A stretch of 41,198 nucleotides of DNA from a virus, in the IMG/VR virus record IMGVR_UViG_3300047678_000828, positions 1 to 41,198 of that record, one strand, 5' to 3'. Of the stretch, positions 28,463 to 35,295 are shown piece after piece. Positions within the stretch are counted from its first letter, which is position 1; each line of letters opens with the position of its first letter. The translations under genes were made by a program, and so were the position numbers. The notes below the pieces were generated by a model. It did not search any database and had not been told where the DNA came from. It was given only the letters and a program-made list of their open reading frames with translations.

Positions 28463-30241
28463 TCAGATGTCGAGCCGCGACCGGGGCCGCCACAGGTCGT
28501 CGGTGCCGGTCGCGGCCGACGCGTCGGCGGTGACCGGCGCCGCGACTTCCGGCTCGTACGACGCCGCGATCGCGATGGTGGCGGCGACCATGCCGTCGAT
28601 GCGTTTCCCCGACGCGTTGCGGTCGGGCTTGACCGGCTTGATCACGTCGGGCTGATCAGCCGGGTGCTTCACCTCGATCGAGTCGGCGTTCCACCGCATC
28701 ACCGGGTTCCCGCCGTGCTCGAACTCGCGGCGCTTCACGAGACGCATCAGCTCGCCCAGCGCGGTGGACAGCCCCTCGTAGGTCTGCGCGACGCGTTCCA
28801 TCGCGATGCCGCGCCCCTCGAGCCACTGCTTCGTCGCGGTCGCGCCCCACGGGTCGTAGCCGACGCGCAGCACCTCGAAGTCCTCGAGGTCGCGGGCGAT
28901 GTCGGCGTGGATCGTCTCGTAGTCGATCTCGTCGCCGGGCGTCGCGCGCACCAGCCCCTCGCGGACCCACACCGAGAACTTCCCGCCGGTGTGTTCGTCG
29001 AGGACCGGCACCCGCGCCGCGGGCGTCCAGAACCGCCACAGCATCAGGTTCGGGTCGCCCTTGAAGAACAACGCCCACGCGGCGAGGTCCGTCGTCGACG
29101 CGAGGTCGAGGCCGCCGTAGCAACGAGACCGGGCGAGCGCGGCCTCGCGGACCTTCTCCACCGACAGCTTCCCGCACGGGTCCCACTCGGTGAGCTGCAT
29201 CCACCGGGTCTGCTGCTGGACCCGCTGGTTGAGCCGGTACTGCCGGAACGCGTTCTCCTTCGTCGGGTCGAGTTTCGCCTCGAGCGCCTCTTCCCGCAGC
29301 GCGGTGATCGACAGGAACCCGCCCGGCTTCCCGGGCCGCGTCAGCGCCGGGTTCGGGTGGTACCAGTTCTTCTCGTCCCACGGGTCTGCGTCGATCGGCG
29401 TCTTCCGCACGTACGCGAACCAGTGCGGCGCGCGCTTCGGGTCGGCCTGGATCTTCTCCAGCTCGTCGATCATGTCGGCGCCGAAGCTGGCCGGGTCGTT
29501 CGTCTCGGTGCTCGCGAGGACGAACAGCGGCTGCAGCCGGGTGCCGGCCGCGGTGCGCAGCGCGTTCCACAGCGAGTCGTCACGCTGCGACAGCACCTCG
29601 TCGAGCACGAACCCGTGCGGGTTGTGGCCGAGCTCCCCCATCGCGTCGGCGGTGATGATCTCGTAGTACGAGTCGGTGCCCTCGTCGAAGATCCGGCGGG
29701 CGTTCTTGTTCTCGTCGAGGCGGCCGCCCTGCTTCGCGTCGAGGATCGCGGACAGCTTCATCATCCGCCGGGTCGGCTCGTACACCTTCCCGGCCTGCTT
29801 GGTGTCCTTCGCCGCGCCGTAGATCTCGGCGGCTTCCTCGTCGTCGGCGACCAGGAGGTACAGCACGATCCCGGCGCAGATCTCGCTCTTGCCGTTCTTC
29901 CGGCCGAGGATGATCCCCGCGACGGTGTACCGCCGGCGGTAGATCCGCTCGTCGGCGTCCCACACCACCTCGCCGAACAGTGGGCGGATGATGTCGTGCT
30001 CCTGCCACGCCTCGAGCGTGAACGAACGCCGCGCCCAGCGGCCCTTCGTGTGGACGAGGACCTCGGCGAAGAACGCCACGACCTTGTCGGCGCGCGGCGC
30101 GCAGTAGTGCGCCCCGCGCCGGCGGCACACCGTGTCGTCGAACGTGTACCCGCACGCGGGGCCGCCGCGGGTGCGGGGCCGCCACCGCTTCGTGTGGTCA
30201 GGTGGTGAAGAACCGCTCCTTCGGGTTCGCGCCGCGGCCAT
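28463..30241 (-). CDS. terL: Large terminase subunit
   Basis: This 592-residue packaging motor has an N-terminal ATPase with Walker A GRKNGKSE (residues 113-120) and Walker B FVLDEV (Asp214-Glu215), an LASTET coupling motif near residue 243, and a C-terminal RNase H-like nuclease (YGGLDLASTTDLAAW with catalytic Asp and VGYDPWGATA). It drives DNA into the prohead and cuts genome ends. The start at ATG 30241 gives a 44-base overlap with the small subunit gene; no other start is seen near the stop of that gene. HNH gene, small subunit, large subunit and portal stand together, as in cos-type HK97-like phages. Confidence 0.93.
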   Translation of the reverse strand: MAAARTRRSGSSPPDHTKRWRPRTRGGPACGYTFDDTVCRRRGAHYCAPRADKVVAFFAEVLVHTKGRWARRSFTLEAWQEHDIIRPLFGEVVWDADERIYRRRYTVAGIILGRKNGKSEICAGIVLYLLVADDEEAAEIYGAAKDTKQAGKVYEPTRRMMKLSAILDAKQGGRLDENKNARRIFDEGTDSYYEIITADAMGELGHNPHGFVLDEVLSQRDDSLWNALRTAAGTRLQPLFVLASTETNDPASFGADMIDELEKIQADPKRAPHWFAYVRKTPIDADPWDEKNWYHPNPALTRPGKPGGFLSITALREEALEAKLDPTKENAFRQYRLNQRVQQQTRWMQLTEWDPCGKLSVEKVREAALARSRCYGGLDLASTTDLAAWALFFKGDPNLMLWRFWTPAARVPVLDEHTGGKFSVWVREGLVRATPGDEIDYETIHADIARDLEDFEVLRVGYDPWGATATKQWLEGRGIAMERVAQTYEGLSTALGELMRLVKRREFEHGGNPVMRWNADSIEVKHPADQPDVIKPVKPDRNASGKRIDGMVAATIAIAASYEPEVAAPVTADASAATGTDDLWRPRSRLDI

Positions 30242-30677
30242 GGCCCACCTTCAGATCCGCCCGGTCCGCCGGCGACAGTCCGAACCGCGCGCCGAACCTG
30301 AGCATCGCTTCGTTGGCTCCCTTCCAGACCTGCCACCAGGGCGACAGGACGATGCGGGTCCCGGTCGGCTTGCCGTTGCGGTCGAACACGGGCGACTCGA
30401 TCACCTCGCCGTCCGCGTCGAGGTGCGCGGCGGCGCGGTCACGGCGTTCGACGGCGTCGCAGAACGCGGCGAACTCGTCGACGTCCCACGGGGTCAGCAC
30501 GTTCGTGTGGATGAGGTCGGGAGCGAGCCGCTCCCACACGCCACGTGCACCGTCGGAGAGGTTCGTCGGCGCGACGATCTGCCCAGGCGCCGGCATGGGC
30601 TCGTCGACGCCGGCGGTCTTGTCGCCGTGCAGCTGCGCCACCGCCGTCGGCGCCTTCTTCGGACCTCTCTTGCCCAT
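30198..30677 (-). CDS. terS: Small terminase subunit, P27 type
   Basis: This 159-residue protein has the P27-family pattern: a basic start (MGKRGPKKAP), then APTNLSDGARGVWERLAPDLIHTNVLTPWDVDEFAAFCDAVER and a C-terminal FGLSPADRADLKV. It recognises the packaging site and regulates the large subunit. The ATG has GGAGG upstream. The 104 bases before the gene hold repeat sequences that may be its binding site. Confidence 0.88.
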   Translation of the reverse strand: MGKRGPKKAPTAVAQLHGDKTAGVDEPMPAPGQIVAPTNLSDGARGVWERLAPDLIHTNVLTPWDVDEFAAFCDAVERRDRAAAHLDADGEVIESPVFDRNGKPTGTRIVLSPWWQVWKGANEAMLRFGARFGLSPADRADLKVGHGRGANPKERFFTT

Positions 30678-30781
30678 CCCTGGCCTCCAGCAGCCCTTGG
30701 TACGCGCGCCTCGAAAACCTCGGCACGCGCGCGCAGGGCTGGCGATGGGTACAGACGATCAACTCGAAACGGACTTTCGGT
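30678..30781. other. Candidate packaging (cos) region with direct repeats
   Basis: In this 104-base gap between HNH and terS lie two copies of GGYACGCGCGC (30699-30709 and 30722-30732), spaced by 23 bases, with CCTCG repeated between them. Packaging sites of cos phages are often next to terS and hold terS-binding repeats. No cohesive-end cut can be placed from sequence alone. Confidence 0.4.
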
Positions 30782-31102
30782 TCAGCCGCGGCGGTCGCGG
30801 CGCGCGCGCTGGTTGCACCGCGGACACGCGGGCGCGCGACCGAGCTCCGGTCGTCCGTCCTCGACGTGAGCGAGATCCCATCGCCCGTCGGGCTCGAGGA
30901 TCTCGCCGCAGTACATGCACGGGTACGGCATCCGCTTCTTCCACGCCTCGCGCTCGGCGCGGTGCGTGGCGTCGTACCCGCGGGCAGCTGGTGTGCCGCG
31001 CCGGTGTTCGTGGTCTCGGGCGCAGTCCGGGCACCGTCCCTGCGCTGCCGGGATCAGGCGCCCGCACCGGCCGGGACAGCGTCGTGGTGACCGTGTCGGC
31101 AT
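30782..31102 (-). CDS. HNH endonuclease of the packaging module
   Basis: This 106-residue protein has an N-terminal zinc-like pair (CPGRC, CPDC), a Gly-rich ARGYDATHR turn and the HNH core: Cys62-x2-Cys65, WDLAHV (His79), then CPRCNQRA (Asn97). Such HNH proteins next to terminases are needed for genome end cutting in cos phages. The ATG at 31102 is the only reasonable start; its A is also the last base of the tRNA gene upstream (CCA), and there is no ribosome-binding site other than tRNA sequence. Translation may therefore occur only from unprocessed transcript. Confidence 0.88.
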   Translation of the reverse strand: MPTRSPRRCPGRCGRLIPAAQGRCPDCARDHEHRRGTPAARGYDATHRAEREAWKKRMPYPCMYCGEILEPDGRWDLAHVEDGRPELGRAPACPRCNQRARRDRRG

Positions 31103-31178
31103 GGTGGCGGGAGCAGGACTCGAACCTGCGACCTCCGGGGAATGAACCCAGCGCGCTGACCATCTGCGCCATCCCGCT
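31102..31178 (-). tRNA. tRNA-Met (anticodon CAT), initiator-like, CCA encoded
   Basis: A full 77-base cloverleaf is visible. Acceptor AGCGGGA pairs with TCCCGCC except for an A1-C72 mismatch. The D stem is GCGC/GCGC, the anticodon stem CTGGG/CCCGG, the loop TTCATTC with anticodon CAT, the variable loop AGGTC, the T stem GCAGG/CCTGC with loop TTCGAGT, discriminator A73 and encoded CCA. The 1-72 mismatch and the GGG/CCC pairs in the anticodon stem are initiator features; the C11-G24 pair is of elongator type, and U37 (normally a purine) is odd. An Ile-type (lysidine) reading cannot be excluded. Confidence 0.85.
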
Positions 31179-31260
31179 CCGGAACTAGGAGAGCCGCCCC
31201 GCAGGCGCAGGACGGCTCAACTAGCAGCAGTGAACCACACGCGTGGCATTCAGTCAAGTA

Positions 31261-31632
31261 TCACGGGCTCGGCATTTCGGCGGGCTCTCCGCCATCGGGG
31301 TCATCGATGTCCAACGCACGGGGCAGTGGCGTCCTGCCGGTGACGACCGGCGTCTGGTCGGGCTCTTCGCCTTCCAGTGTGGCGGCGAGATTCCGGAATG
31401 CTGCGGTGGTGCGGAAGGTGGACTCCCCAAGCCAGAGGAACGCATCGCTGACGCTTCGCGGCCGGTGCTTCACTCGGCCAGGTCTCGGCGGAGCGGGGTG
31501 ATCGTCGCCAGACCACGCTGGCCCGGCGACGAACGCTACGGCCACGGCCTCGAGCGCGCGGCGCTCTTCGCTGGTCACATGCACCCCCCGCGGTCGCTCC
31601 GGCATGGTGACTTTGTGCGCGTTGCGCCTCAC
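31261..31632 (-). CDS. Hypothetical phage protein
   Basis: This 123-residue protein has an early helical part (TSEERRALEAVAVAFVAG), a Pro/Arg-rich region and a helix with SVSDAFLWLGESTFRTTAAFRNLAATLEGEE. No family is recognised. The GTG at 31632 gives the longest form; an ATG at 31605 (MPERPRG) is an equally possible start. Neither has a clear ribosome-binding site. It lies directly upstream of the tRNA. Confidence 0.5.
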   Translation of the reverse strand: MRRNAHKVTMPERPRGVHVTSEERRALEAVAVAFVAGPAWSGDDHPAPPRPGRVKHRPRSVSDAFLWLGESTFRTTAAFRNLAATLEGEEPDQTPVVTGRTPLPRALDIDDPDGGEPAEMPSP

Positions 31633-31663
31633 GGCTTCAGAGCCTACCGGCCGAGCGCCTGGC

Positions 31664-31672
31664 GGGGGGGGG
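31664..31672. repeat. Nine-G homopolymer tract (C9 on the coding strand)
   Basis: A run of nine G on the plus strand lies 28 bases beyond the stop codon of the gene at 31700. It is one of two nine-base G runs in the early region; the other is at 36475-36483. Both are between genes. Confidence 0.8.
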
Positions 31673-31699
31673 CGTAGTACTCGGTCGACTCGATCGACA

Positions 31700-32443
31700 T
31701 CACGAGGTGTGGCCGCCGTACTCGAAGTCGTTGCCCATCGACGGCTTGCCGGGCTGGCGGGTGCGGCGGGCGGTGCGGCGGGCGTGTTGGGTGCGGTCGA
31801 ACTCGGTGGGGTGGTGGTCGCGGATCATGGTGTGGGGGACGTTGCTGCCGGGGTGGTCGAGTCGCCAGGCGACGATGTCGCGGTGGGGTTCGGTGCCGTA
31901 GTCGCGGATGAACCGGTCGCACCAGGAGCAGACGGGGATCTTCCGGCCGTGGGGCATCGAGGGTCGGGTGATGCGGTTGTAGACCTCGCTGTGGCCTTCG
32001 GGGTGGGGGCGGCCGTCGTGGGTGGTGATCTCGGCGCAGAGGGCGCAGCCTTCGACGGGGGGGAGGTTCCGGGCGAGTTCGGGGTCGACGGCGCCCTTGA
32101 CGATCTCGTACAGGTTCCGGGTCGCGCGGGCGAGGTCCGCGAATGCGAGGTCCATGCGTCGCTGCTCGAGGTCGAAGTGGTCGCCCGGCTCCCACTGGTC
32201 GGGGGCCGTGACACCGGCGGGGTGGTCGCCGTTCTCGTCGCCGGCGTCGGCGCGGTCCGCGGCGAGCGCAGCGCCGCCGGTCGGGTCGCCGATCCCGGGT
32301 GTGCGGGACTGGCCGCCGCCGGTGGGGTAGCCGAGGCCGGACCAGGCGGCGAAGTTCGCTCGGGCGTGGACGTGGTGCCGTTCGACGTAGGCGAGATGTT
32401 CGCCGACGAGGGTCACGATGTCCTTCGCGGTGCGGTCCTTCAC
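31700..32443 (-). CDS. Zinc-ribbon-like phage protein
   Basis: This 247-residue protein starts at GTG 32443, overlapping the previous stop (GTGA). A helical N-terminus is followed by two Cys pairs (CALCAEI and CSWCDRF) with His residues between, suggestive of a zinc-binding fold, then a basic C-terminal region (RTQHARRTARRTRQPGK). A nucleic-acid-binding role is likely. It follows the HTH protein gene in the early operon. Confidence 0.7.
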   Translation of the reverse strand: MKDRTAKDIVTLVGEHLAYVERHHVHARANFAAWSGLGYPTGGGQSRTPGIGDPTGGAALAADRADAGDENGDHPAGVTAPDQWEPGDHFDLEQRRMDLAFADLARATRNLYEIVKGAVDPELARNLPPVEGCALCAEITTHDGRPHPEGHSEVYNRITRPSMPHGRKIPVCSWCDRFIRDYGTEPHRDIVAWRLDHPGSNVPHTMIRDHHPTEFDRTQHARRTARRTRQPGKPSMGNDFEYGGHTS

Positions 32444-34135: not shown

Positions 34136-34419
34136 CGGCGCCTCAGGGTGAGGAGTTCGTCCTCGGTCATGGCGGCCCACACGCCGAGGACTTCGCCATG
34201 CTCGACGACGTGGGCGTGGCATTCGGCGAGAACCGGGCAGGTGCGGCACACGAGCACGGCCAGGGCTTCGCGATACCGGCGGGCGTCGGGGCGTTCCGCG
34301 TTGGGTGGGAGGAACAGGTCGTGGCGGCCGCGGCACGCGCCGCGGTCCGCCCACCGTCCCGGGAGGTGGGGCAGCATCCGGAACAGACCCTGGATCTGGG
34401 CTCTGACGCGGTCCGTCAC
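34132..34419 (-). CDS. WhiB-family iron-sulfur regulator
   Basis: This 95-residue protein has the four conserved cysteines Cys29, Cys58, Cys61 and Cys67 (spacing 28-2-5) that bind a [4Fe-4S] cluster, and the GVWAAMTEDE turn (GVWxG-like). WhiB proteins bind the primary sigma factor and change promoter choice. Phage-encoded forms can act as dominant inhibitors of host WhiB2-like proteins. They are restricted to actinobacteria and their phages, which identifies the host group. It starts at a GTG with a 4-base overlap. Confidence 0.9.
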   Translation of the reverse strand: MTDRVRAQIQGLFRMLPHLPGRWADRGACRGRHDLFLPPNAERPDARRYREALAVLVCRTCPVLAECHAHVVEHGEVLGVWAAMTEDELLTLRRR

Positions 34420-34829
34420 GTGAGGAGCCCCTCCGTGCGGAGCTGGGCGGCTTCGGCGAGGATCTCCTCACCGAGCTCGGTGGTGGGGGCGACGATCAGG
34501 AACCGGGCGTGGGCCTGGCCCGGGTGGGCGTGGATCCAGTCGTGGCAGGCGAGGCACACCCAGAGGAGGTTCCGGTCCGTGTGAGGACCGCCCTGCGAGC
34601 GGAGGATCCGATGGTGGGCGTGGACACCCACCCGGGTGCACACCGAGCTCGTCACCTGCGCTTCGCAACGGCCTCCAGCGCGGGCCTTCACCCGGGCCGA
34701 CGCGCGGCGCAAGTCGCGTTCCTTCCTGCGCACCCTGGGTGACGTGTACGAGCGCATCACACCGGCGCGGAGGCGGGTGAGCGCGTCGGGTTGCTTGAAG
34801 CGGGGGAAGCCCGCCGGGACGTCCGTCAC
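34416..34829 (-). CDS. HNH endonuclease-like protein
   Basis: This 137-residue protein starts at GTG 34829 (GTGA overlap). A basic helical part precedes an HNH core: GGRCEAQ, VHAHHRILRSQGGPHTDRNLLWVCLACHDWIHAHP, with two His, an Asn and the CxxCH zinc pair. It may nick or cut DNA in replication or recombination, or be a homing-type relic. It is not the packaging HNH, which is next to terS. Confidence 0.82.
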   Translation of the reverse strand: MTDVPAGFPRFKQPDALTRLRAGVMRSYTSPRVRRKERDLRRASARVKARAGGRCEAQVTSSVCTRVGVHAHHRILRSQGGPHTDRNLLWVCLACHDWIHAHPGQAHARFLIVAPTTELGEEILAEAAQLRTEGLLT

Positions 34830-35143
34830 GGGCGGGCCATCGCGACGATCACCGACCCGCCGTCGCACAGCAGCCGGTCCCGCAGCCGATCGAACACGTC
34901 CGGGCTCGGCGCGGCGGCGTTCAACGCGTCGACGACGCGCAGCGCGGCGGGACCCGACTCGACCGTGACCACCAGCCGCACCGGCACGTCGCCCAACGCG
35001 TCGAGGACCGCGTTCGTGACCCTGCGGCGGTGCAGGACCGGGTCGCAGTCCGGGGGGCACCAGCTCGCGACGCGTGCCCACGACCGGTCCGCGATCCGGT
35101 CGAGGAGACGCGACCGGCGCCGGCGGACACGGCGCGAGCTCAC
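34826..35143 (-). CDS. Hypothetical protein, early operon
   Basis: This 105-residue protein has a very basic N-terminus (MSSRRVRRRRSRLLDRI), one CPPDC pair, a beta strand (VRLVVTVESG) and a helical C-terminus (SPDVFDRLRDRLLCDGGS). It starts at a GTG with a 4-base overlap. No family is recognised. Confidence 0.58.
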   Translation of the reverse strand: MSSRRVRRRRSRLLDRIADRSWARVASWCPPDCDPVLHRRRVTNAVLDALGDVPVRLVVTVESGPAALRVVDALNAAAPSPDVFDRLRDRLLCDGGSVIVAMARP

Positions 35144-35295
35144 CGGCCCGCCACAGTCGCCGACCGCAACGCGTGCGGCGCGTCGAGGACATGATCATCC
35201 GCCGACCGGCACCGTTCGCCGACCCGCGCGCCGCACGTCACGCACTCCACCCGCAGCGCGAACCGGCGAGTCAGGTCTTCGCTCGTCGCGGTCAC
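35140..35295 (-). CDS. Phage zinc-finger microprotein
   Basis: This 51-residue protein has the pattern C-x2-CGARVGERC, then PHALR, which matches the small DNA-binding zinc fingers of actinophages (CxxCGAxxGxxC plus His). It starts at GTG 35295 with a 4-base overlap on each side. Confidence 0.68.
   Translation of the reverse strand: MTATSEDLTRRFALRVECVTCGARVGERCRSADDHVLDAPHALRSATVAGR

Follow-up and report, generated by a model that had tools for sequence, protein, structure and literature searches.

What becomes of a start codon whose first base is also the last base of a tRNA? The question is raised by IMG/VR record IMGVR_UViG_3300047678_000828, analysed from position 1 to 41,198 (41,198 bases; the window). 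On its minus strand, a tRNA-Met(CAT) gene with an encoded CCA (31102..31178; ARAGORN c[31102,31178]; Rfam RF00005, 57.4 bits against a cut-off of 29) runs directly into a 106-aa ORF for an HNH endonuclease (30782..31102). The CCA lies at 31104-31102 and the HNH ATG at 31102-31100, and hence A76 of the tRNA and the A of the ATG are a single base, 31102. The ARAGORN call, the sequence and the ORF confirm this common base, which had been reported in a preliminary description together with the argument that maturation of the tRNA must cut after the A and so remove the start codon. The shared base and the HNH start have stood; the necessity of a cut after the A has not. A literature search, with most subscription papers lying outside it, returned no description of a phage start codon that uses the A of a tRNA CCA.

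The window has a GC content of 71.6% and its relatives by large terminase subunit (TerL) are Streptomyces and Amycolatopsis prophages and Streptomyces phage Chymera, from which the host is probably an actinobacterium. The phage is probably temperate, given a tyrosine integrase match at 1261-1680 on the plus strand (PF00589, 78.7 bits). The order on the minus strand is a gene ending at 31261, a hairpin, the tRNA, HNH, the small terminase subunit (TerS, 30198..30677; PF05119, E 4e-19; phrog_83), TerL (28463..30241; PF20441/PF03354; phrog_9) and the portal gene. It is likely that the tRNA and HNH lie on one common transcript. The gap between HNH and TerS contains an inverted repeat (I1, 30691..30741), which may be a cos region or a terminator; the genomes of Chymera and Constance end with HNH as their last gene. 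The locus resembles the HNH-TerS-TerL cassette of these two actinophages, in which HNH either immediately precedes the terminase genes or occupies the genome end. About 3 kb upstream there is another HNH endonuclease gene (34416-35198, minus strand; PF01844, phrog_740).

The 106-aa ORF matches phrog_1808 (E 1.9e-6) and also phrog_144, and is 42% identical to homologues in Arthrobacter phages; it gave no Pfam HNH match. It has both the HNH profile and the position adjoining the terminase genes that characterize phage HNH packaging endonucleases. The first His (in WDLAH) and the CxxCN motif are present, and the central Asn is not evident by eye. There is no ATG, GTG or TTG in frame from codon 2 to codon 57, and the next in-frame start, an ATG at codon 58, lies within the conserved region. 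An N-terminus of the form MPxx.PRxC is common to the window protein, Streptomyces prophage L041 (MPSRAPRPC) and Arthrobacter phage Constance (MPSAPRKPC, read from an ATG upstream of the annotated start). Since these N-termini match, the start at 31102 proposed in the preliminary description is very probably correct. The Constance gene has been annotated from an internal start (L276, 2454-2613); the ATG directly at the previous stop yields the conserved zinc-ribbon HNH N-terminus, with the same layout as in the window.

No Shine-Dalgarno sequence precedes HNH: the 22 nt upstream pair with the anti-Shine-Dalgarno at only -2.6 kcal/mol, which falls short of the 75% background quantile (-3.5), compared with -9.3 for TerS, -8.5 for TerL and -15.4 kcal/mol for the portal gene. 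In this lack HNH is like a leaderless mRNA. Relatives of the cassette start HNH differently, either at or overlapping the previous stop (Constance, Chymera) or after a GGAGG (L041), whereas the window HNH starts from a tRNA. The preliminary description had suggested comparing the junction in related phages; a tRNA above the cut-off occurs in only 2 of 21 records of TerL relatives, leaving no junction to compare. A search of the same 21 records with the window HNH gave no match, though weak tblastn matches exist in some loci.

The preliminary description overlooked the initiator-like character of the tRNA. Its anticodon stem has three G-C pairs (GGG/CCC) beside the CAU anticodon, a stem found in only 18 of 158 CAT tRNAs examined, and in the cloverleaf position 1:72 is unpaired (A1 x C72), a mismatch also present in an initiator-like tRNA of L195. 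Among about 1,700 tRNAs examined its nearest matches are initiators: it is 82% identical to the tRNA-fMet of Stenotrophomonas phage vB_Sm_QDWS359, 75% to the Streptomyces initiator and 65% to the other type of Streptomyces tRNA-Met(CAT). However, the D stem carries C11:G24 in place of the A11:U24 of the Streptomyces initiator, and the anticodon loop (TTCATTC) has U37 instead of A37. As both traits are absent, its sequence places it as initiator-like and not as a member of the bacterial initiator tRNAs. The Streptomyces initiator tRNA genes examined are without an encoded CCA.

U37 is rare. Residue 37 was A in 556, G in 4, U in 3 (including the window) and C in 3 of the unique U36 tRNAs examined; no other CAT tRNA examined has U37, and searches of the rest of IMG/VR and of 396 actinobacterial genomes gave no further copy of this anticodon arm. 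Anticodon-loop changes in other phage tRNAs have been proposed to evade host tRNases (PMC10264068). By analogy, U37 may avoid host anticodon nucleases, or may be a sign of decay; the window tRNA resembles the evading tRNAs in having a loop altered relative to that of the host, and differs in being one case without a known nuclease. The QDWS359 tRNA shares the GGG/CCC stem, the 1:72 mismatch and a place near the terminase genes, but has A37 and is followed by tRNA-Ile and not by a gene. Solitary or near-solitary initiator-like tRNAs near packaging genes were seen in phages of Pseudomonas (PaMx74), Stenotrophomonas (QDWS359) and Bordetella (PHB09; L164, L165 and L167), those of PaMx74 and PHB09 being unannotated. 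In PaMx74, gp05 would start directly after a CCA (CCA|ATG), but looks spurious.

The fate of the start codon depends on where the 3' end of the tRNA is cut. In Streptomyces coelicolor, CCA is absent from 53 of 65 tRNA genes, and cleavage falls between the two Cs in most of the 12 tRNAs that encode it (PMC4681348). In Propionibacterium acnes, cuts inside CCA were always between the Cs, with other CCA-encoding tRNAs cut a few nucleotides downstream (PMC3848588). Cleavage between the Cs would keep the AUG. Because C|CA cutting is known in these two actinobacteria, a host of this type would not be expected to remove the A.

These observations suggest that tRNA processing makes a near-leaderless HNH message. 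The tRNA and HNH would be transcribed together as a single RNA, and a host tRNA 3'-processing nuclease, if it acts as in the two actinobacteria, would cut between C74 and C75. A nucleotidyltransferase would put CA back on the freed tRNA. The remaining message would begin 5'-p-C-AUG-CCG, with a 1-nt leader and the AUG intact, and would be usable by actinobacterial ribosomes, so that processing would switch HNH translation on. By analogy with known systems we prefer this reading to that of the preliminary description, and give it a probability of about 0.36.

The shared A and the lack of a Shine-Dalgarno sequence speak for it directly, as does the absence of a TANNNT -10 at the spacing expected for a leaderless start made by transcription. 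It would also fit the probable actinobacterial host and, by analogy, the C|CA cleavage described in S. coelicolor and P. acnes. Messages of this kind may well be translated: S. coelicolor has 264 mRNAs with leaders shorter than 10 nt (PMC4681348), and leaderless translation depends on a 5' phosphate, with initiator tRNA strongly enhancing it (reviewed in PMC9031893). Plausible genes at a shared A in L081, L151 and L140, and an excess of ORFs after CCATG, lend further support. Against it, some CCA-encoding tRNAs of P. acnes are cut a few nucleotides downstream; TerL relatives do not conserve the junction; and U37 makes it doubtful whether the tRNA is functional. A 1-nt leader may also cost some translation, as leaderless translation in some species drops when the start codon is set back from the 5' end (PMC9031893).

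Two known systems come close. Like S. coelicolor and P. acnes tRNAs cut at C|CA, the window tRNA combines an encoded CCA and high GC with the proposed cut site; the available portions of those two reports mention no coding sequence directly downstream of the cut. In mitochondria, RNase P and RNase Z release mRNAs by cutting out tRNAs that lack an encoded CCA. There, as proposed here, a gene abuts a tRNA, and excision of the tRNA fixes where a virtually leaderless message begins; the window differs in that its tRNA encodes the CCA and has a base in common with the start codon, and in that the cut is predicted from other actinobacteria.

Sequences around the tRNA bear on whether the single RNA is made. 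A strong GC-rich hairpin without a U-tract (31185..31224, minus strand; inverted repeat I4) ends 6 nt before the tRNA; 31179-31230 folds at -33 kcal/mol (z -5.8). It is possibly an actinobacterial-type terminator or a processing element. If a terminator, it would be predicted to block transcripts from upstream, and it could stop them before the tRNA, which counts against the preferred reading; the stretch from the hairpin to the tRNA offers no good promoter. Further upstream, a -35-like hexamer without a good -10, TTGACT (31252..31257, minus strand), was read from the sequence and is a weak candidate for the promoter of the tRNA-HNH unit. The tRNA alone folds as a cloverleaf (-31.1 kcal/mol) that leaves the AUG unpaired. 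With the HNH codons added, the minimum free energy structure prefers an 11-bp alternative pairing that is 3.4 kcal lower; as this gap was equalled by 34 to 37% of controls, an RNA switch between the 5' half of the tRNA and the HNH codons was dismissed as chance. The earlier suggestion that the folded tRNA masks the start therefore finds no backing. The identity of GCCACCATG with a eukaryotic Kozak site was set aside as coincidence.

How rare is the layout? In an unbiased set of 164 phage tRNA ends, picked regardless of the following sequence, TG follows CCA at 10 (about 6%) and a credible gene begins at the shared A at one (L047); a second set gave 0 of 448, a count biased low since overlapping contigs had been removed. 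The window junction is for this reason uncommon, yet one such case could still arise by chance. Where no further tRNA lay nearby, ORFs of at least 60 codons opened at 10 of 44 CCATG sites, compared with 4 of 55 CCATC sites. A deoxynucleotide monophosphate kinase (DNMK) starts at the shared A in L081, and plausible genes do so, judged by eye from translations, in L110, L151 (methyltransferase-like), L047, L101, L115 and L117.

The clearest case is L140 (IMGVR_UViG_3300017963_000316), with 22 tRNAs in 14 kb and the whole locus on the minus strand. At six of the 22 the A of the CCA is the A of the ATG of a plausible ORF, and three further tRNAs have an ATG at +2 or +3; the ORFs start mostly without a Shine-Dalgarno sequence. 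One shared-A ORF is metallophosphoesterase-like by eye, with a relative at 34% identity. A gene start at a shared A is thus a rare, recurring phage feature and not unique to the window. Of 200 genomes of the Streptomyces family, 75 have a CCATG behind a tRNA-type T-arm; none of 30 loci checked in that family had a convincing gene at the shared A, and a host habit was rejected. In L067, the CCATG that opens the gene for an HNH_3 homing-type endonuclease (5565) lies behind a tRNA-like sequence without an ARAGORN call.

Chance alone might account for the junction if the tRNA had been inserted against HNH, with low HNH translation from the unprocessed transcript, without a Shine-Dalgarno sequence, and an overlap of no regulatory role. 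Given the frequency of TG after CCA, a shared A is easily reached; the junction is absent from TerL relatives, and their HNH starts also overlap an upstream stop, tight spacing being usual here. Yet the locus is otherwise loose (about 80 nt ahead of the tRNA and about 100 nt behind HNH), 30S subunits would load poorly with a folded tRNA a few nucleotides before the AUG, and the repeated shared-A starts in L140 argue that the layout can be kept. We consider this doubtful, but by no means negligible. In the model of the preliminary description, maturation would end exactly after the A, as through a downstream cut and trimming, and destroy the HNH message, so that each transcript would yield either tRNA or HNH and HNH would stay low. 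Cutting downstream and trimming is the E. coli model and is seen for some CCA-encoding P. acnes tRNAs, and the model would hold if the host does cut downstream and then trim, which is possible; most CCA-encoding tRNAs of S. coelicolor are instead cut between the Cs, and where one phage places several genes at such junctions, as in L140, all of them would be lost. On balance it is unlikely.

HNH could also be read from a leaderless transcript of its own, if a promoter within the tRNA gene drove initiation at 31102 or close by. Leaderless starts at transcription start sites are common in actinobacteria, but a scan of 30600-31700, including the tRNA gene, revealed no match to a promoter consensus (E. 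coli-type only), and TANNNT is absent at -7 to -12 in ctgctcccgccacc, making such a transcript quite improbable. Least credible is translational coupling, by which a TTG-started ORF (31257-31054) read through the tRNA and ending inside HNH would bring in ribosomes. This ORF is open, has a zinc-ribbon-like CxxC..CxC pattern and starts 3 nt past the upstream stop. It was rejected for its poor coding signal (GC3 0.62, against 0.91 to 0.96 in the window terminase genes) and lack of a family match; its start overlaps the -35-like TTGACT, and its stop lies about 46 nt beyond the HNH start.

A wider proposal can be made only tentatively, and is itself rather doubtful: that tRNA 3' processing serves phages as a switch for translation. 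A single cleavage between C74 and C75 would yield both an initiator-like tRNA and a near-leaderless message, and the freed tRNA would favour leaderless starts; in contigs like L140, where the layout recurs at many tRNAs, this would amount to tRNA punctuation in bacterial viruses. If the preferred reading is true, tRNA maturation, usually held separate from mRNA translation, would create a working phage start codon. It would also give the unusual actinobacterial cut between the Cs a function, and explain why some phages carry a solitary tRNA.
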